DNA from: a virus
Direction: 5' to 3' (one strand)
IMG/VR virus record: IMGVR_UViG_3300008114_000178
Span: 1-32,719 of that record
Length of the DNA stretch: 32,719 nt
Part shown: positions 2,785-23,027 of the stretch, one piece after another
How the letters are laid out: the number at the start of each line of letters is the position of its first letter
Numbering within the stretch: the first letter of the stretch is position 1
Translations under genes and position numbers: made by a program
The notes under the pieces: generated by a model
What the model saw: the letters and a program-made list of their open reading frames with translations, nothing else
What the model was told of the DNA's origin: nothing
The model's database searches: none

Positions 2785-3223
2785 CTTAATACTCTTACTA
2801 TTTGTCTCTTGCAATCCGGTTAAAAAAGTTCTAAATAATAGAACTATGTTTGACCAGGTTGCCAAAGAGGTTATTAAGGCTGGGCTTTGCGCTAACGATA
2901 CAACTATTATCACCAAAAGCGACACAACGATAAAAGTGGACACTTTAACCATTGTGGATGAGCAATTGGAGGTTAAGGTGTTCAATGATACTACTTATAT
3001 CACTAAGTGGAGTACAAATGTGGTGACAAAAACGCTCACCATCCATGATACTATCAAACGATACATAGTTGATAATGCACGGGTCAACATCCTACAAGCC
3101 GAGCTCACAAGTTCTAAAGTAGAGGCTGACAATTGGAAAGGAAGGGCAAATAAGGCCTTTGGTTGGCTTATAGTTGTATTTTTGGGCATAGGTGCTTACT
3201 TGTACTTAAAACTTAAAAAATGA
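2771..3223 (+). CDS. Putative unimolecular spanin (lipoprotein with C-terminal membrane anchor)
   Basis: 150 residues from ATG 2771; a longer in-frame start at 2720 would bury the signal sequence, so 2771 is preferred. The N-terminus is a lipoprotein signal (MIRISLILLLFVS then Cys14-Asn), and the last 20 residues are one membrane segment with a basic end (GWLIVVFLGIGAYLYLKLKK). Between them is a Thr/Asp-rich, beta-prone stretch (DTTI, DTLTI, DTTY) followed by a helix. A lipid-anchored N-terminus plus an inner membrane C-terminus is the arrangement of u-spanins such as phage T1 gp11, which bridge and fuse the inner and outer membranes in the last step of lysis. It sits between the holin and endolysin genes, overlapping the latter by 4 bases. 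Function is inferred from architecture and context. Confidence 0.75.
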   Translation: MIRISLILLLFVSCNPVKKVLNNRTMFDQVAKEVIKAGLCANDTTIITKSDTTIKVDTLTIVDEQLEVKVFNDTTYITKWSTNVVTKTLTIHDTIKRYIVDNARVNILQAELTSSKVEADNWKGRANKAFGWLIVVFLGIGAYLYLKLKK

Positions 3224-3660
3224 GCCTTAATCTGGACATTATTAAGCAATTTGAGGGATTGAGTCTAAGCGCCTACAAATGCCCTGCCGGAAAGGTCACA
3301 ATTGGCTTCGGGAACACCTTCTATGAGGATGGAAAGCCAGTCCTTATGGGCGATAAAATAACAAGAGATAGAGCCGATTTCTTACTCGCAAAGGTAGCCG
3401 AGCAATTTGCCAATAGGATGGCTAAGTATATCAAATCGCATATAAATGACAACCAAAGGTCGGCATTACTCTCTTTTGCATATAATTGCGGCATTGGCAA
3501 CTTTAGCGGTAGCACATTGCTAAAGAAAGTGAACGCCAACCCAAACGACCCCACCATTAGGCAAGAGTTCATGAAATGGAACCGATCAAGTGGCAAAGTA
3601 TTAAATGGGCTTACGAGGAGGCGAGAGGCCGAGGCTAACTTGTACTTTAAAACCCCTTAA
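3220..3660 (+). CDS. Endolysin, T4-type lysozyme (glycoside hydrolase 24)
   Basis: 146 residues. It hydrolyses the glycan strands of peptidoglycan. The catalytic Glu12 lies in FEGLSLSAY and Thr27 in KVTIGFG, with exactly the Glu-8-x-5-Thr spacing of T4 lysozyme (Glu11, Asp20, Thr26). The middle position, normally Asp, is Cys21 here. Further family marks are LLSFAYNCGIGNFSGSTLLKK and the end GLTRRREAEANLY. There is no signal peptide or SAR anchor, so release must depend on the holin upstream. Length and end motif are complete for the family. The start overlaps the spanin stop (ATGA). Confidence 0.93.
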   Translation: MSLNLDIIKQFEGLSLSAYKCPAGKVTIGFGNTFYEDGKPVLMGDKITRDRADFLLAKVAEQFANRMAKYIKSHINDNQRSALLSFAYNCGIGNFSGSTLLKKVNANPNDPTIRQEFMKWNRSSGKVLNGLTRRREAEANLYFKTP

Positions 3661-3661
3661 T

Positions 3662-4648
3662 ATGGCGAACAACCCACTTTTTAGCAAAGCCAATGTTGCC
3701 GAGGAATACCGCAAAAAATATGGTTGGGAGATGCCTACCCTTAAATTAGCAAGAATCATGCAAAAGGAGAACCCATTGCTATTTAATACTGTTGAAAGGT
3801 CAAGAGATACTCTACGAGCTATTGAAGGTAAGCATGGTAAAAATGGAGATAGAGTTAGAAAATTAGTAGATGAAAGACCACGCAACCCATACAACCTACC
3901 TAAGTCGGAGGAGGCTAATTATGAGCCATATGTAATTAAAGCCAAGCGATTATTGGTACTTTCCGACATTCATATACCTTATCACTCAATCGACGCTTTA
4001 ACCGCGGCTTTTGACTACGCAAAAAAGGAGAAGCCAGATGCTATCCTTCTCAATGGAGATACAATTGACTTTTTCCAATTGAGCCGCTTTGTGAAAGACC
4101 CAAAAGCCAGGTCATTTGCACATGAGCTATTGGCTTTTAAAGAGTTCATGGATGTACTAAAAGATACGTTCAAATGTCAAATTTACTTTAAGACTGGTAA
4201 CCACGAGGAGCGCTACTTTCATTACCTTTGGATGAAAGCGGGGGAGTTAAATGGAGTAGATGAGTTTGAGCTTGAGAACATCATCAAGTCAAGAGCGGAA
4301 GGAATAGAGATAATTAAAGACAAGCGTATCATTAAAGCTGGTGCTCTTAATATCATCCACGGACACGAGTTTGGTGGATCGGTCTTTAGCCCTGTTAATA
4401 TTGCTCGTGGTTTGTTCTTAAGAGGTAAGGTTAGTGCCATGCAAGGCCACAACCACCAGACAAGCGAACACACGGAGAGCAATATGAATGGGGAAATAGT
4501 GACAACATTCTCTTTGGGATGTTTGTCCGAGTTGAACCCTGCCTACTTGCCAATTAACAAATGGAATCACGGCTTTGCAATGGTTGACATTGATGGTGAT
4601 AGCTTTGATGTAAGAAACAAGAGGATTTTTAAAGGGAAAGTATTATGA
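3662..4648 (+). CDS. Calcineurin-like metallophosphoesterase
   Basis: 328 residues from ATG 3662, one base after the endolysin stop; the in-frame codons upstream from 3605 overlap the endolysin and look non-coding. The full metallophosphoesterase signature is present: Asp102-x-His104 (SDIHIP), Gly132-Asp133 (NGDTIDF), Gly-Asn-His181-Glu182, His233-Gly-His235, and Gly262-His-Asn-His265. These bind a di-metal centre for phosphoester cleavage. The first 90 residues are a charged helical extension. Such enzymes are frequent among early genes of phages, where they may act on DNA ends, RNA or nucleotides; the substrate here is unknown. Confidence 0.88.
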   Translation: MANNPLFSKANVAEEYRKKYGWEMPTLKLARIMQKENPLLFNTVERSRDTLRAIEGKHGKNGDRVRKLVDERPRNPYNLPKSEEANYEPYVIKAKRLLVLSDIHIPYHSIDALTAAFDYAKKEKPDAILLNGDTIDFFQLSRFVKDPKARSFAHELLAFKEFMDVLKDTFKCQIYFKTGNHEERYFHYLWMKAGELNGVDEFELENIIKSRAEGIEIIKDKRIIKAGALNIIHGHEFGGSVFSPVNIARGLFLRGKVSAMQGHNHQTSEHTESNMNGEIVTTFSLGCLSELNPAYLPINKWNHGFAMVDIDGDSFDVRNKRIFKGKVL

Positions 4649-7574: not shown

Positions 7575-8806
7575 CCTTACGCGACTATCAAGTTAGAATT
7601 AGTGATGAGGCGGTTGAAATACTAAAAGAGCATGGATTGGTTTACTTAGCAATGGAGCCAAGAACCGGAAAGACTCTTACATCTATAGTTACTGCCTACA
7701 AAGCAGGAGCTAAGAATGTTTTATTTGTGACCAAGAAAAAAGCCATTGATGATATTGTATTACAAGCAAAAGACCTTGGTTATCAAATTTTACTAAATGT
7801 GGTAAACTACGAGCAATTGCACAAGGTTAAAGATGAGTATGATTTGGTCATTTGCGATGAAGCGCATAGCATCGGAGCGTTTCCAATGAAAAGTAATAGG
7901 TGCGAGGAGCTTAAAAGGATTTGTGAGGATAAAAAAATTATATACTTATCTGGTACTCCATCACCAGAATCGTATAGTCAATTGTACCACCAGTTCTTTA
8001 TCTCATCTTTCTCTCCCTTCAAAAAGTGGCCTACCTTCTACAAATGGGCGCATGAGTTTGTGGCGATCAAGAAAGTGATGATAAATGGACAATCGTTCAA
8101 TGATTATAAGAACGCCGACCATCAAAAGGTTAGAGAGCATTGCGCACACCTATTTATCTCGTTCACCCAAGAACAAGCTGGGTTTACATCTTTTGTAGAT
8201 GAGGAGATACATTATGTGAAAATGATGGACTCAACGTATAGACTCGCAAATAGGCTTAAAAATGACAAAGTGGTCACTAATGCCGATGGTGATAAGGTGA
8301 TATGCGAGACAGCCGTTAAGCTCATGCAAAAGCTTCACCAAATTTATAGTGGTACCATTATCATTGATGAGCCGGAGCGAGAGAGTCGTATTATTGATAA
8401 TAGTAAGGTAGATTATATAAAAGAACGATTTAAATACCTTAAAAAATACGCTATCTTTTATAAGTTCAAGCAAGAGGGCTTATTACTAAAGACATTGTTT
8501 GATGAACCAGTTTTTGACGATGCAATGGAATTTGAAAGGGCAAGTAGGGGTATTTTCATTTCGCAAATTGTAAGTGGTAGGGAGGGTATCAACTTACAAT
8601 CTGCAGAGGCTCTTATAATGTATAATATAGACTTTTCAGCTACCTCCTATTGGCAGACAAGGGCTAGGATACAAACAAGGGATAAAGAGTTGGAATGTAA
8701 GGTACATTGGCTATTTTCGGTAAATGGCATTGAGGATAAAATACACAAAGCGGTGAGTGATAAGAAGGATTATACCATTAGGTACTTTAAAAATGATTTT
8801 TTGTGA
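7571..8806 (+). CDS. SNF2/SF2-type DNA helicase
   Basis: 411 residues. ATP-binding motifs: MEPRTGKT (Walker A, about 28-35), VICDEAH (DEAH box, 93-99) and YLSGTP (motif III, 125-130). In the second domain FISQIVSGREGINLQSAEALIMYNI and YWQTRARIQTRDK correspond to motifs V and VI of phage SNF2-like helicases. LRDYQ at the start is the usual Q-like motif. It is shorter than cellular SWI/SNF proteins but normal for phage versions. Probable role: ATP-driven DNA translocation in replication or recombination, with the nuclease upstream. Confidence 0.88.
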   Translation: MTLRDYQVRISDEAVEILKEHGLVYLAMEPRTGKTLTSIVTAYKAGAKNVLFVTKKKAIDDIVLQAKDLGYQILLNVVNYEQLHKVKDEYDLVICDEAHSIGAFPMKSNRCEELKRICEDKKIIYLSGTPSPESYSQLYHQFFISSFSPFKKWPTFYKWAHEFVAIKKVMINGQSFNDYKNADHQKVREHCAHLFISFTQEQAGFTSFVDEEIHYVKMMDSTYRLANRLKNDKVVTNADGDKVICETAVKLMQKLHQIYSGTIIIDEPERESRIIDNSKVDYIKERFKYLKKYAIFYKFKQEGLLLKTLFDEPVFDDAMEFERASRGIFISQIVSGREGINLQSAEALIMYNIDFSATSYWQTRARIQTRDKELECKVHWLFSVNGIEDKIHKAVSDKKDYTIRYFKNDFL

Positions 8807-9618
8807 TAAAAATTAACAGTTTATCCGGTGGTAAGACAAGCTCTTACATGGCTATTCACTATCCCGCCGATTATTACATATTTGCATTGGTTACAATACA
8901 AGACATATCTTGTAAGCCTAAAGATGACTCTATTATTAAATATGTATCAAATAAGATAGGTAAAGAGTTTGTCGCAACAGCCGAGGATGATAAAACACTA
9001 ATAGTCTTGCGAGATTTAGAACAAATGATGGGTAAAGAAATTATTTGGGTAACTGGTCACTCATTTGAGAAAGTAAATAAAAAAATGACAGGAGGCAAAG
9101 GATTGCCCAACCAAATGTGGAGATTTTGCACAACAGAAATGAAAATGAGACCCATTTTTGATTGGTGGTATAAGAATATTAATGAGAAAGTTATTATGAA
9201 CATTGGCATTAGATATGATGAGATGGAAAGGGCAGAAAGGATAAAAAACACATTTAAAGGCATAGTTGGTAGTCGTGGTACACGCAATAAATGGGAGGAA
9301 ATAGAGTGGAGAGAGGCCGCTTTTCCTATGGTAAATGATAAAATTATACATCCAAAAGTTGTTAATTGGGCTAATTCAACTAATTTAACCTTCCCAACCG
9401 ACTCTAATTGTGTAGGATGTTTTTGGAAAAGTATTAACCAACTGCGTAAAAATTGGGAGGATAACCCACAAAAAATGCAATGGTTTGCCGATCAAGAGAA
9501 TGATAAAAAGAGGTGGAAAAAGGAGATGAGTTATAAGCAAATATTAAATGTTGGCTTACAAATGGACTTTGATTTTGGTGAGGGTGCCGGATGTCAAGCT
9601 GGTTTTTGTACCGATTAA
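8803..9618 (+). CDS. PAPS-reductase/adenine nucleotide alpha-hydrolase-like protein
   Basis: 271 residues. It begins at GTG 8803, overlapping the helicase stop (GTGA). The PP-loop SGGKTSS (residues 8-14) is the adenylate-binding signature of the PAPS reductase / N-type ATP pyrophosphatase superfamily. Cys109 (WRFCTTEMK), Cys203 and Cys206 (NCVGC) and Cys264/Cys269 near the end (GCQAGFC) could hold an iron-sulfur cluster or act in sulfur transfer, as in the DndC/TtcA-like branches. Phage members are common but their reaction is mostly unknown; DndB, DndD or DndE partners are not seen here, so phosphorothioation is only a speculation. Confidence 0.8.
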   Translation: MIKINSLSGGKTSSYMAIHYPADYYIFALVTIQDISCKPKDDSIIKYVSNKIGKEFVATAEDDKTLIVLRDLEQMMGKEIIWVTGHSFEKVNKKMTGGKGLPNQMWRFCTTEMKMRPIFDWWYKNINEKVIMNIGIRYDEMERAERIKNTFKGIVGSRGTRNKWEEIEWREAAFPMVNDKIIHPKVVNWANSTNLTFPTDSNCVGCFWKSINQLRKNWEDNPQKMQWFADQENDKKRWKKEMSYKQILNVGLQMDFDFGEGAGCQAGFCTD

Positions 9619-9768: not shown

Positions 9769-10154
9769 ACGCATCGGGACTTAATTACCATCTCGGCCTC
9801 CGTTCCTCAATAGATATAGACTATTGGGTTGACAAAACAAATCAATTCTTAGAGTGGAAAGCCACTGTTATTAGCAACACACAAGGCATTACCAATCTTT
9901 ATGGCTATGCAAAAGGAGCACACTTTTGGATAAGATTTAGAATTGACATAGATGACCTCTCAACCAAAGAGGAGGAGTCACTTATCAAAGAGTGGGATGG
10001 TGAGGTGCATAGAGGCTATCTTGAGGGTACGTTCTGCGTTAGTACGTTCACCGAGAAGGATTGGCAAATAGAATTTAGCGTTGAGCCAAAGCCATCAATG
10101 ATACCTCAAGAGCTGCGAGTCAATTTCATGGATAAACTAATGGAGGTGGTATGA
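9738..10154 (+). CDS. Hypothetical protein, 138 residues
   Basis: Mixed alpha/beta soluble protein without membrane segment or signal peptide (IDIDYWVDKTNQFLEWKATV, FWIRFRIDIDDLSTKEEES, GYLEGTFCVSTFTEKDWQIEF). It ends with a 4-base overlap (ATGA) with the methyltransferase gene. No family or motif recognised. The operon position links it to DNA modification or nucleotide functions, which is not evidence of a role. Confidence 0.7.
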   Translation: MDFKTTKFDVDASGLNYHLGLRSSIDIDYWVDKTNQFLEWKATVISNTQGITNLYGYAKGAHFWIRFRIDIDDLSTKEEESLIKEWDGEVHRGYLEGTFCVSTFTEKDWQIEFSVEPKPSMIPQELRVNFMDKLMEVV

Positions 10155-11215
10155 AACATGGCTCATTATTTAGTGGCATTGGAGGCTTTGACCTGGCTGC
10201 CGAATGGATGGGATGGGAGAATGTTTTCCATTGTGAGTGGAACAAATTTGGACAGCAAGTATTAAAATATTATTGGCCTAATTCAATTAGTTACGATGAC
10301 ATCACCAAAACAGATTTTACTATTCACAGAGGAAAAATTGACATCATCACCGGAGGATTCCCATGTCAACCATACTCAAGTGCAGGAAAGCGACTTGGCA
10401 AAGAGGATGAGAGACACCTCTGGCCGCAAATGCTTAGAACGATTAGAGAGGTTCAGCCACGTTGGGTCGTGGGCGAAAACGTTCTCGGCCTTGTTAATTG
10501 GTCAGGAGGGTTGGTTTTCCACGAGGTGCAAGCTGACTTGGAAGCTGAAGGGTACGAAGTACAACCGTTTGTACTTCCAGCTGTTTCCGTCAACGCACCC
10601 CACCGAAGAGACCGAGTTTGGTTTGTTGCCCACTCCAAAAACAATGGATGGAATGGCGGAGAATTTGAACAGCGGGAAGGAATTGAAACTAATCAATGGA
10701 AGTTTTGTGAACATAAGACAAAAGGACGGGATGAGGTTTGGCCCGAGTCTCAACGACATAGCCAAAATGGGAATGTTGCCGACACCGAATGCACAAGATT
10801 GGAACACAGGAACGAAACCAGAAACTTATCAAACGAGAAAAGAAAGACATCAACAGAAAGGAGTCAATTTGCAAATGAGTTTGAGACAGATGGCGATGGG
10901 GAGCGGTTGTCTGCCAACTCCGATGGCATCGGATTGCGGAGAGAAAGTAACTGGTCTGGAAAATCAAGATTCATTAGTAAAAATGACAAGAGAAATGACT
11001 GGCAAACCTTCCCAACTGTCTCCCCAATTTGTTCTGGAGATGATGGGATTTCCGACCGATTGGACTCTATTACCTTTCCTAAATGGAGAAATGAATCAAT
11101 CAAAGCCGGAGGAAATGCAATAGTTCCTCAAGTAGTTTACCAAATATTTAAAACAATCGAACAATATGAGAGAATCACTAATACAAGGCGCGATCCGCGC
11201 TCACCTCATCAATGA
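10151..11215 (+). CDS. DNA (cytosine-5) methyltransferase
   Basis: 354 residues. Motif I FSGIGGFD (7-14) binds S-adenosylmethionine; motif IV GGFPCQPYS has catalytic Cys72; motif VI GEN-V at 108-111; motif VIII RRDRVWFV (152-159); motif X GNAIVPQVV (321-329). It transfers a methyl group to cytosine C5, probably protecting phage DNA from host restriction or marking it. No cognate restriction gene is seen. The region between motifs VIII and X (about 160-318), where the target recognition domain should be, is hydrophilic and low in hydrophobic residues, with AHS (160-162), ADT (210-212) and ANS (255-257) repeats each followed by a G-L/W context. That whole stretch is also open in another frame (10296-11123), which may explain the odd composition. 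Confidence 0.93.
   Translation: MKHGSLFSGIGGFDLAAEWMGWENVFHCEWNKFGQQVLKYYWPNSISYDDITKTDFTIHRGKIDIITGGFPCQPYSSAGKRLGKEDERHLWPQMLRTIREVQPRWVVGENVLGLVNWSGGLVFHEVQADLEAEGYEVQPFVLPAVSVNAPHRRDRVWFVAHSKNNGWNGGEFEQREGIETNQWKFCEHKTKGRDEVWPESQRHSQNGNVADTECTRLEHRNETRNLSNEKRKTSTERSQFANEFETDGDGERLSANSDGIGLRRESNWSGKSRFISKNDKRNDWQTFPTVSPICSGDDGISDRLDSITFPKWRNESIKAGGNAIVPQVVYQIFKTIEQYERITNTRRDPRSPHQ
10296..11123 (+). CDS. Overlapping reading frame nested in the methyltransferase gene (LPTP-repeat protein)
   Basis: A 275-codon frame wholly inside the methyltransferase gene. Unlike a random shadow it has protein-like order: a Trp/Leu-rich part (FSHVGSWAKTFSALLIGQEG, CKLTWKLKGTKYNRLYFQLFP), three spaced repeats GLLPTPKTMDG, GMLPTPNAQDW and GCLPTPMASDC (LPTP at 10626, 10776, 10911), and an end LSPQFVLEMMGFPTDWT. 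From memory, proteins with these same features recur in sequence databases beside or overlapping phage cytosine methyltransferases, suggesting both frames are conserved. It may be a separate protein translated from an internal start (ATG 10296), or a pattern forced by the methyltransferase sequence. No function is known to me. Confidence 0.45.
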   Translation: MTSPKQILLFTEEKLTSSPEDSHVNHTQVQESDLAKRMRDTSGRKCLERLERFSHVGSWAKTFSALLIGQEGWFSTRCKLTWKLKGTKYNRLYFQLFPSTHPTEETEFGLLPTPKTMDGMAENLNSGKELKLINGSFVNIRQKDGMRFGPSLNDIAKMGMLPTPNAQDWNTGTKPETYQTRKERHQQKGVNLQMSLRQMAMGSGCLPTPMASDCGEKVTGLENQDSLVKMTREMTGKPSQLSPQFVLEMMGFPTDWTLLPFLNGEMNQSKPEEMQ

Positions 11216-19715: not shown

Positions 19716-20885
19716 ATGGAAAATTTGAAGCAATTTGAAGATGCCTTGGCATCTAAGTTGGCCGAGCAAAAGGCCGAGGTTGTAGCTGCTACCGAGAAAG
19801 CCGCTAAAGCATTTGAATCTCGCGTTGAGCAAATCAACGAAGAGATGGTTAAGGCAAACAAGACCGCTGCTGAAGCTGTTGCCGAAGTTAAAGAAGCTAA
19901 AGCTGCCTTTGGTAAGCTCCAAGCTAAAGAAGAGAAGAAGGTTGCCGTTTCTTACGCTGACCACATCAACAACATCAAGAGCGAAATTGGTGCTGCTATC
20001 GAAAAGGGTTGGAACGACATTAAGTCTGCCGCTCGTGGTAACGGTAAAGGTTTCTCTTACGAGATGGATTTGAAGGCCGTAGGTACTATGACCATTTCTA
20101 ACAACCTTACTGGTTCTGTTTACACCTCTTATGTTGACAACCCAGCTCTCCGTAGCTTTGTTAACCCTCACCTGAGAAGTGTGTTCAACATCATCCCCGT
20201 ATCAACTGGTTCTGTATCTTTCCCTCGTGGCAACAGCCCCGTTGGTGAAGGTTCTTTCGGTAAGCAAACTGAAGGTTCTGCAAAGCCTCAAGTTGATTAC
20301 GATGTAACCGTAGTAAACACCGCGTTGTCTTTCATCGCTGGTTACGCTAAAGTATCTCGTCAGATGATTGATGACCTTCCTTTCTTGCAAGCTTATTTGC
20401 AGCAGTCTTTGATCGAAGACTTCCAAAAGGCTGAAGATACATATTACCTCAACGCCATCGCCGCTTCTGCTACCGCAGGTTCTTCTTCTGGTGCTAACAC
20501 CGCTGAGAAGTTCATTGATTATGTAGCTCAATTGGGCGCGTTGAACTGGACTCCAAATCTTTCCTTGACCACACACGCTGGTTGGGCTGGTTTGTTGAAA
20601 ACCAAGCCATCCGATTACTCTATCCCTGGTGGCATGGTTATCGACCAGAATGGTAACGTTCGTATCGTAGGCGTTCCCGTTATCCCTCATAGCTTGGTTA
20701 CTGCTTCCAAGATTTATGTGATGGATACCACTAAGTTTGCTATCGCACAACAAAGTGGTCTCGCGGTTCGTTCTACCGAGTTCGACCAAGATGACTTTAT
20801 CAAAAACCTCATTACCTTCCGTTGCGAGGCTCGTTGCGAACTCCTCCAGTTCCAACCAACTGCCGCTGTTTACGGAGCTATCTAA
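19716..20885 (+). CDS. Major capsid protein (HK97 fold)
   Basis: 389 residues. Residues 1-75 are an Ala/Lys/Glu-rich coiled coil, the usual delta domain that acts as scaffold and is removed by the prohead protease; the mature part begins somewhere near 80-110. The later region (SVYTSYVDNPALRSFVNPHL, VSFPRGNSPVGEGSFGKQTEG, SFIAGYAKVSRQMIDDLPFLQAYLQ, DTYYLNAIA, CEARCELLQFQPTAAVYGAI) is standard for HK97-type capsids. The leader TCTAACAAAATGG is A-rich with no Shine-Dalgarno. Codon use (CGT for Arg, AAC, TTC, GCT) is visibly unlike the neighbours (AGG/AGA, AAT), consistent with very high expression. Confidence 0.93.
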   Translation: MENLKQFEDALASKLAEQKAEVVAATEKAAKAFESRVEQINEEMVKANKTAAEAVAEVKEAKAAFGKLQAKEEKKVAVSYADHINNIKSEIGAAIEKGWNDIKSAARGNGKGFSYEMDLKAVGTMTISNNLTGSVYTSYVDNPALRSFVNPHLRSVFNIIPVSTGSVSFPRGNSPVGEGSFGKQTEGSAKPQVDYDVTVVNTALSFIAGYAKVSRQMIDDLPFLQAYLQQSLIEDFQKAEDTYYLNAIAASATAGSSSGANTAEKFIDYVAQLGALNWTPNLSLTTHAGWAGLLKTKPSDYSIPGGMVIDQNGNVRIVGVPVIPHSLVTASKIYVMDTTKFAIAQQSGLAVRSTEFDQDDFIKNLITFRCEARCELLQFQPTAAVYGAI

Positions 20886-21499
20886 TCGGGTTTGATTGTT
20901 ATGGTTCTAAATGGGGGCGGCATGCAGTTATTATAGGAGCTATGGATGGGGTATCATTTGATGATATATTTGATACCTTAAATAATTACAAAAAAGTATT
21001 ATTTGTTGAACCTGTACCGCATTATTTTAATTTATTAAAATTAAATGCACATAGATTAAATACTGAAGTTTGTTTTGAAAATTCACCAATAAGCGACAAA
21101 CATGAAAATATTGAATTAGCATATTTAGATATAAATTCATTAAATAATTACGAATATTTTTATAAGGGTTGCAGTAGTGTTATAGAAAACGGCGAACCAA
21201 TAAATAAATATTTAAAAAAAGTTGATAATAAAGACTTAGTAATACTTTCTTGTAAAAGTTTGACATTTAATGATTTATGCGAAAAATGGGATATTAAAGA
21301 GATTGAATATCTACAAATAGATTGTGAAGGATATGACCAAAGAATTGTAAATAGCATAGATTTAGAAAAGTATAATATAAAAAAATTGAAATTCGAAACA
21401 CACTATTTAGATAGTGATTTCATAAGTATATTTTCCAATAAGTGGCCTAATTATAAATATGAATTGATTGAAGCAGATATAATATACTATAAACTATGA
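20885..21499 (+). CDS. FkbM-type methyltransferase, apparent ATC start
   Basis: 204 residues if initiated at ATC 20885, which shares its A with the capsid stop TAA. No ATG or GTG lies in a useful place: the next ATG (20941) would remove the AdoMet loop VIIGAMDGVSFDD (residues 15-27 from ATC), and the TTG codons at 20822/20834 lie inside capsid sequence. Other motifs: FVEPVP (40-45), and LQIDCEGYD (Asp146-Glu148) typical of Methyltransf_21. FkbM enzymes methylate sugar or other hydroxyls. The gene is strikingly AT-rich compared with the capsid gene. It is followed by a glycosyltransferase gene with a 4-base overlap (ATGA). Function: probably finishes a glycan; target inferred. Confidence 0.8.
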   Translation: MGFDCYGSKWGRHAVIIGAMDGVSFDDIFDTLNNYKKVLFVEPVPHYFNLLKLNAHRLNTEVCFENSPISDKHENIELAYLDINSLNNYEYFYKGCSSVIENGEPINKYLKKVDNKDLVILSCKSLTFNDLCEKWDIKEIEYLQIDCEGYDQRIVNSIDLEKYNIKKLKFETHYLDSDFISIFSNKWPNYKYELIEADIIYYKL

Positions 21500-22467
21500 A
21501 CTTTCTATTAAGCGTACATCTTTATCCACCTAAGCATCTTTGCGGAGCTGAAACCATGATACATGGGATAGCAAAACATTTGATTAGCAAAGGCCATAAT
21601 GTGCGAGTTTTATTGCATCAAGCAAATCATTATAAAATAAGTAATAATTACACTTTTGACGGGGTGGATGTGTTCCCTCCTAATACTAATGTAATAGATG
21701 GGTTGATGAGGTGGTGCGATGGGGTATTTACCCATTTGGATTACACAAGATGGACAATACACACGGCAAAAATGTATAAAAAGCCTGTTTTTCATCTTAT
21801 ACATAATAGCCATCCATACCCAGAGATTATAATGGCCGAGAAGCCACAACACATTATTTATAATTCTTTTTGGTTAAAAGACTTACTTAATTATAATTTT
21901 AGTAACTTTATATTGCCTCCACCTACCGACTATCGTTATTTTGACTTGGGCATAGACCCTATCAAAAATGAGTACATTACTTTGATTAACTTGAACAAGA
22001 ACAAAGGTGGGGAGATATTTGAGCAAATAGCGAAAGCGATGGCAAATAAGAAGTTCTTAGGTGTCATTGGCTCTTATGATGAGCAAATCATACCTAAGTT
22101 GCCAAATGTGAGGATAGTTGAGAAAAGTGTGAACATTAAGGATTATTATGCTATCACTCGGATACTTGTTATGCCAAGTGAGTATGAGAGTTGGGGCATA
22201 ACGGCAACAGAGGCTATGAGTAGTGGTATTCCGGTGATATGCACCGAGACACCTGGCCTTTTGGAGAACTGCGGTAAAGCTGCTATTTATGTCAAAAAAC
22301 GAGATGATATTAAAGCTTGGGTTAAAGCGATTAGCGACTTGGATGATGAAAAGAAATATAGAGAGTTTAGTCGAAAAGCAAAAGAGAGAGCAAAGGAACA
22401 CGACCCAAGAAAAAAACTCGATGAGCTTGAGCCATGGATTAGAGAAAAGGTTTATCAATACAAATAG
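21496..22467 (+). CDS. Glycosyltransferase family 4
   Basis: 323 residues. The N-terminal Rossmann domain begins MNFLLSVHLYPP and has GAET (17-20) and ISKGHNVRVLL; the C-terminal nucleotide-sugar domain has EYESWGITATEAMSSGIPVICTETPGLLENCG with the Glu231-x7-Glu239 motif of GT4 retaining enzymes. HNSHPYPE (103-110) may contribute to the acceptor site. It probably transfers a sugar to a virion protein or host glycan. It sits between capsid and connector genes with FkbM upstream, a place that suggests capsid decoration. Codon use is mixed: AT-rich at the start and closer to phage average towards the end. Confidence 0.87.
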   Translation: MNFLLSVHLYPPKHLCGAETMIHGIAKHLISKGHNVRVLLHQANHYKISNNYTFDGVDVFPPNTNVIDGLMRWCDGVFTHLDYTRWTIHTAKMYKKPVFHLIHNSHPYPEIIMAEKPQHIIYNSFWLKDLLNYNFSNFILPPPTDYRYFDLGIDPIKNEYITLINLNKNKGGEIFEQIAKAMANKKFLGVIGSYDEQIIPKLPNVRIVEKSVNIKDYYAITRILVMPSEYESWGITATEAMSSGIPVICTETPGLLENCGKAAIYVKKRDDIKAWVKAISDLDDEKKYREFSRKAKERAKEHDPRKKLDELEPWIREKVYQYK

Positions 22468-22469
22468 CG

Positions 22470-23027
22470 ATGATTTATATAAATAGCGTTAGTGTTCTAT
22501 CGGATTCGGTTGTAGAGCCAGTAAGTAGGACGGATGTAAAGAATTGGTTGAGGATTGACTATACGAGCGATGATAGCCTCATTGATAGCCTTATCAACGC
22601 GGCAAGGGTACATATTGAGAAACTAACGGGGAGGAGCTTGGTTAATAAGAAACTAAGGGCTAATATTGAGCTTAGTGGATATGTGCCAAATGTTTGGATT
22701 ATAGACCTACCTTATAGTCCTATGATTTGTGTAGATGAGGTAAAAATAAAGGAAGGTATTAACGATTATGATACTTTGACCGTTAACGATGACTATGAGG
22801 TTATAGGTGGCAAACTTTGGATGTACAATAGGGGTATTTTTAGCGTTACATACCAAGCAGGATATGGAACAATCCCTCAAGACCTAAAAAACGATATTTT
22901 GACACTTGTATCTTGGATGTATGAGAATAGGGGTAAAAAGATGAATGCCGATCCGAAACAATCGGTTCAACAATATCCAATGTGGGAAGGACTTAACTAT
23001 CACCAATATAAACAAGTGGTTATTTAG
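22470..23027 (+). CDS. Head-tail connector, HK97 gp6-like
   Basis: 185 residues. Pattern: SRTDVKNWLRIDYTSDDSLIDSLINAARVHIEKLTGRSL, the typical helix pair of the gp6 / phage_connect family, then a beta-rich insert (IIDLPYSPMICVDEVKIKEG, YEVIGGKLWMY, FSVTYQAGYG) and helix IPQDLKNDILTLVSWMYENRG. It forms the ring below the portal. It starts 2 bases after the glycosyltransferase stop, so the head-to-tail gene order resumes right after the FkbM-GT insert. Confidence 0.9.
   Translation: MIYINSVSVLSDSVVEPVSRTDVKNWLRIDYTSDDSLIDSLINAARVHIEKLTGRSLVNKKLRANIELSGYVPNVWIIDLPYSPMICVDEVKIKEGINDYDTLTVNDDYEVIGGKLWMYNRGIFSVTYQAGYGTIPQDLKNDILTLVSWMYENRGKKMNADPKQSVQQYPMWEGLNYHQYKQVVI

Follow-up and report, generated by a model that had tools for sequence, protein, structure and literature searches.

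The junction between the genes for the major capsid protein (MCP) and the gp6-like head-tail connector in a group of HK97-type siphophages carries a fixed GT4 glycosyltransferase gene, preceded by a slot in which enzymes of unrelated families replace each other as alleles. The best reading of this island, held with moderate confidence, is that its enzymes form a modular pathway for a glycan on a head protein of the virion, probably the MCP, with synteny pointing to the acceptor. The placement of the island is well supported; its acceptor, sugar and benefit are what we infer around it.

Genes at the capsid-connector junction

The analysed stretch (referred to as the window) is a virus record of 32.7 kb, an HK97-type siphophage contig, in which the head cluster runs in the order terminase, portal, MuF, S78 protease, MCP, FkbM, GT4, gp6-like connector and gp10-like protein. 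The island and its borders consist of the following features:

19716..20885, + strand: HK97-fold MCP, the probable acceptor (PF05065, E 5e-15; TIGR01554, 48.4 bits against a cut-off of 27.5)
20913..20921, + strand: 5' arm (GGGGGCGGC) of the post-MCP terminator hairpin, with the 3' arm and U-tract missing here (comparison with relatives L001, L083 and L081)
20921..20922, no strand: point of a 32-bp gap relative to L001, L081 and L083 (alignment to these relatives)
20922..21499, + strand: FkbM-family SAM methyltransferase gene, without a start codon here (PF05050, 36.7 bits against a cut-off of 22.7; first in-frame ATG at 20942)
21496..22467, + strand: GT4 (retaining GT-B) glycosyltransferase, intact and fixed in the locus (PF00534, 60.1 bits against a cut-off of 26.4; phrog_26352, E 7e-63)
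22470..23027, + strand: gp6-like head-tail connector, which bounds the island (PF05135, E 5e-13)

The preliminary description located FkbM and GT4 genes between the MCP and connector genes, coupled by ATGA; the Pfam identities were all confirmed, and the GT4 start overlaps the FkbM stop by ATGA. It also took both enzyme genes to be intact, which is correct for GT4, but the start codon of the FkbM gene has gone with the 32-bp gap.

The FkbM protein fell marginally short of the cut-off of TIGR01444 (NCBIfam; 35.4 against 37.7). Its frame is open from upstream of the MCP stop and contains no ATG, GTG or TTG from that stop (20885) up to the ATG at 20942, which falls 3' of the SAM motif I strand VIIGA. 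In L001, L081 and L083 a usable start codon precedes the complete SAM motif I (the intact start in L083 reads MNAVIIGAMDG), which is not so in the window; the conserved motifs of the FkbM proteins are IIGAMDG, DxEGxD and KFExHY. The window is 100% identical to L001 over 13.1 kb (flanks of 7,206 and 5,929 bp) save for the 32 bp, and the same difference was observed against L081 (100% identity) and L083 (99.96% downstream). The missing 32 bp hold the 3' arm of the hairpin, its U-tract and the FkbM start codon. Because the contig was assembled from a metagenome and the lesion coincides with a hairpin, a very recent deletion and an assembly error are equally likely. Should the gap be genuine, GT4 would be the only acting enzyme in this record.

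The relatives were gathered by capsid and GT4 searches of viral contigs. In all lineage-A loci whose sequence extends far enough past the MCP, GT4 directly precedes the connector. The catalytic motif E231-x7-E239 was invariant in 23 GT4 sequences. An AF2 model of GT4 (pLDDT 91.6) matched MshA, BshA and PglA in Foldseek (E down to 5e-15); the donor sugar cannot be read from these nearest predicted folds.

The GC content of the FkbM gene (25%) is low compared with MCP (46%), GT4 (37%) and the window (39.5%), as had been stated in support of a foreign origin. The low value stands, and a recent arrival does not follow from it: FkbM genes of this slot are AT-rich throughout (median GC 31%), which makes composition weak evidence for recent foreign origin.

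Elsewhere in the window, a C5-cytosine DNA methylase gene (10151-11215; PF00145) contains in another frame an ORF of 275 amino acids (10296-11123, + strand), which may be due to chance. The early region encodes a phosphoadenosine phosphosulfate reductase-like protein (8803-9618; phrog_424, E 7e-24). An endolysin gene (3220-3660) and a metallophosphatase ORF (3605-4648) overlap by approximately 55 bp, and the true start of the downstream ORF may be later than its first ATG.

The exchangeable slot and the hairpin before it

The slot between MCP and GT4 was never empty in the relative group. Its proteins (approximately 165-205 amino acids) belong to unrelated families: GT25-like, class I SAM methyltransferase and FkbM. 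Among 105 non-redundant loci, the slot type (HNH genes being ignored in these counts) was GT25 in 42, methyltransferase in 31, FkbM in 22 and GT25 together with FkbM in nine, while in the one other locus FkbM accompanied a GT25 gene that was duplicated or split. An ATGA overlap of the slot gene with GT4 was frequent in all three enzyme families (FkbM, 18 loci; GT25, 18; methyltransferase, 17).

The GT25-like family had no match to PF01755 or any other Pfam family in nine lineage-A members, and in lineage B PF01755 matched weakly, under the cut-off. An AF2 model (pLDDT 92.8) matched COLGALT1 (E 2e-8), LgtB-type galactosyltransferases (E 8e-8) and A064R of chlorovirus PBCV-1, and the motif FEDDV was invariant; the predicted GT-A fold close to GT25 enzymes, together with the conserved EDD motif, places the family with GT25.

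The MCP tree implied 24 changes of slot type and the GT4 tree 21, counts that could be inflated by MCP recombination; comparisons of close pairs need no tree. The MCP proteins of L184 (GT25) and L019 (FkbM) are identical, and their MCP genes are 99.2% identical. In close pairs with different slot enzymes, homology is lost about 50-70 nt past the MCP stop, just beyond the hairpin, and returns at or near the GT4 start. Between L229 and L202, the difference is an FkbM gene that lies in L229 exactly between the GT25 stop and the GT4 start, where L202 has nothing. A single sample (3300031758) yielded both an FkbM allele (L001) and GT25 alleles (L004 and L086).

These comparisons bear on three statements of the preliminary description, namely that conserved gene order allows nothing at the junction, that the two genes were inserted there as a pair, and that the insert is moron-like. 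The junction carries enzymes throughout the relative group, GT4 is constant across the group and the slot gene alone varies, so that the locus is better described as a fixed one with a swappable enzyme. The comparison of relatives with and without the insert, which had been suggested as a check, returned none with an empty slot, and an insertion into an empty junction is thereby rejected. Nor does the island behave as a moron (an extra gene absent from close relatives, at a site otherwise empty), GT4 being universal and the slot always filled.

Median dN/dS values (pairs with 0.1<dS<1) were 0.11 for FkbM, 0.10 for GT25, 0.14 for methyltransferase, 0.08 for GT4 and 0.13 for MCP; judged by these sequence comparisons, the slot enzymes, GT4 and MCP are under purifying selection. 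That the enzymes are drifting cargo with no conserved function, the FkbM gene being in decay, could be argued from the lost start codon of this record and the AT-richness of the gene, but median dN/dS lies near 0.1 for GT4 and each of the slot enzymes, GT4 is universal in the group, and the start is intact in otherwise identical contigs. This explanation, largely contradicted already, is scarcely credible.

NUMOD4/HNH endonuclease genes were found inside the slot beside one of these enzymes in eight loci (L017, L035, L036, L037, L038, L039, L054 and L130). In L035 and L037 two NUMOD4+HNH genes flank GT25, and L017 has an HNH gene plus a GT25 broken in two. Slot exchange may be driven by these endonucleases.

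The hairpin marks the other side of the slot. L001, L083 and L081 carry it complete (GGGGGCGGC-loop-GTCGCTCCCTATTTTT), followed by a U-tract, and the folding energy of the 60 nt after MCP was -21.1 kcal/mol in L001 and -18.7 kcal/mol in L083 (z about -2.6), compared with a z of -0.4 for the equivalent region of the window. A hairpin with a T-run within 90 nt of the MCP stop was present in 92 of the 105 non-redundant loci and in none of 105 shuffles, and 41 distinct versions of the hairpin occurred among these loci. The terminator-like element is upstream of the enzyme island, not downstream; the capsid would thus be transcribed in excess and the enzymes reached by read-through, as far as the sequence allows us to infer.

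Distant relatives and the probable acceptor

GT4 relatives at 33-66% identity, in Bacteroidota operons and Streptomyces-type prophages, keep the order MCP-GT4-connector. The Bacteroidota phage operons have five to seven enzymes at the junction: phage regions of a Taibaiella MAG and a Saprospiraceae MAG run MCP, GT25, a further protein, an FkbM-like protein (motif recognized by eye, no Pfam match), GT11, GT4 and connector, and this operon recurs in viral contigs L262, L264 and L299, with the addition of GT2, an FkbM-domain protein (19.9 bits, under the cut-off) or a possible epimerase. The lineage-B operon also encodes a conserved protein of 245-264 amino acids (L262:3736-4470 and L253:2132-2923) with a GFWLWKP motif, which was seen in L262, L264 and L299; it had no Pfam or PHROG match and is probably another glycosyltransferase. 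In a six-frame search, the GT4 frame of the Taibaiella MAG (L252:6001-6993) held an internal TAA, and this copy may be decaying or mis-assembled. The MCP scan with the Taibaiella prophage gave no match, and no GT4 match at E 1e-25 was found in 395 other genomes of the order of this MAG.

Streptomyces-type prophages and contigs have MCP, GT4 and connector, often followed by a second GT4, as in the S. prasinopilosus prophage (L255), and MCP adjoins GT4 in all 12 of the Streptomyces homologues with 62-67% identity. The lineage C GT4 is a member of phrog_26352 by profile (E 2e-104). On the other hand, five Streptomyces GT4 homologues at 55-57% identity had no recognisable MCP within about 8 kb, and viral locus L303 had none within 7 kb of GT4; therefore, the GT4 family is not exclusively head-linked. 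No such enzymes were present at the junction of the related HK97-type phages Cellulophaga phi10:1 and Flavobacterium 11b.

A head protein fits better as the acceptor than the host surface or DNA, given that the position next to MCP is conserved in phages of different hosts and the partner enzymes are not. Late in infection, the enzymes might instead modify glycans of the host surface, for superinfection exclusion or for serotype conversion. Such a role would suit GT4, GT25, GT11 and FkbM enzymes, which are typical of LPS and capsule pathways, and the NCBIfam matches were mostly to LPS/capsule-type enzymes, under the cut-off. However, both Bacteroidota and Streptomyces-type phages keep the locus confined to the MCP-connector interval of the head cluster, the gene lists of the window show no recognised flippase or integrase, and slot exchange beside MCP would have no obvious reason; we regard this explanation as unlikely.

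The virion itself offers a second candidate, a tail protein or fibre in place of the capsid, and in mycobacteriophage virions the capsid as well as the tail tube carries glycans (PMC12619734, PMC12363180). In lineages A and B, however, the island is found to the head side of the connector, and in lineage C it adjoins MCP, in each case away from the tail genes; only the Streptomyces phage TurkishDelight has a (double) GT4 adjoining the major tail gene. A tail acceptor is about as improbable as the host surface.

Glycosylation or hypermodification of phage DNA could draw on the C5-cytosine DNA methylase of the window, on a GT4-conflict Pfam match and on the DNA-modifying phage glycosyltransferases known from Pyle 2024, as cited in PMC12619734. 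Against this, a scan of window proteins revealed no TET or hydroxymethylase gene product, the replication genes lie far from the island, and the partners FkbM, GT11 and GT25 suit saccharide chemistry; DNA as the target is very improbable.

Proposed pathway and comparison with known systems

For the favoured reading, a glycan on the head protein, GT4 would be the constant enzyme, transferring a sugar from a host nucleotide-sugar to the head protein, most likely MCP, or to a sugar already on MCP, and the slot enzyme would then alter or lengthen the glycan: FkbM or the class I methyltransferase by O-methylation, the GT25-like GT-A enzyme by adding another sugar, and GT25 and FkbM together in some phages. 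The terminator after MCP would leave the capsid in large excess, with read-through supplying catalytic amounts of enzyme. Recombination in the conserved flanks, with the hairpin upstream and the GT4 start downstream, would exchange the slots, and in some loci an HNH endonuclease gene is close by. We propose more tentatively, as a possibility below even odds, a capsid "serotype" locus, in which a recombination-driven allelic slot, possibly HNH-aided, switches the capsid-glycan chemistry (methylated or extended) and leaves the capsid protein unchanged.

A glycan pathway on the virion, as put forward in the preliminary description, persists as the best-supported reading, with synteny evidence far stronger than could have been known from the window. 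Its methyl cap applies to the methyltransferase alleles only; in other alleles a second glycosyltransferase replaces or accompanies the methyltransferase. Virion glycosylation has been documented in a few mycobacteriophages, and here it would be fixed and modular in a common environmental group of uncultured freshwater phages; Bacteroidota and Streptomyces-type phages have a homologous GT4 at this junction too. The slot alleles are natural sets of near-identical capsids with different predicted glycans, which offer a direct test of the role of phage capsid sugars. These results suggest that the phages of this group decorate their shells with changeable sugars.

Phage-encoded glycosyltransferases glycosylate the capsid in mycobacteriophages Che8 (gp110) and Corndog (gp38) (PMC12363180), and virion glycosylation in mycobacteriophages including Myrna is attributed to Freeman et al. 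2023 in PMC12363180 and PMC12619734. The island shares with these systems a phage-encoded glycosyltransferase, here linked to structural genes, the capsid being the named substrate there and the suspected one here. It differs in that the enzymes lie at the MCP-connector junction, are swapped as alleles and include methyltransferases, and tblastn with GT4 against 50,697 phage records found no mycobacteriophage relative: only TurkishDelight and two gut phage fragments matched, TurkishDelight alone over the full length. Gp20 of this phage is of the same GT4 family (32% identity) and is also encoded in the head-tail region after MCP, but it has two GT4 domains in one protein, adjoins the major tail gene and has no recognised slot enzyme.

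In PBCV-1, virus glycosyltransferases and SAM methyltransferases likewise build and methyl-cap a capsid glycan, with A064R and A061L first attaching sugars and then methyl caps (PMC9614988). The likeness between the GT25-like slot enzyme and domain 1 of A064R is one of predicted fold. PBCV-1 differs as a large virus of eukaryotic algae. To our knowledge, its glycan genes include no capsid-linked swappable slot.

The GT4 proteins of the window and of lineage C both belong by profile to PHROG 26352, a family without a name or any annotation of junction linkage or partner enzymes, for which the locus suggests a function. No earlier description of the slot was found in literature searches. Virion glycosylation is already known; the fixed junction and the swappable enzyme would set this form of it apart.
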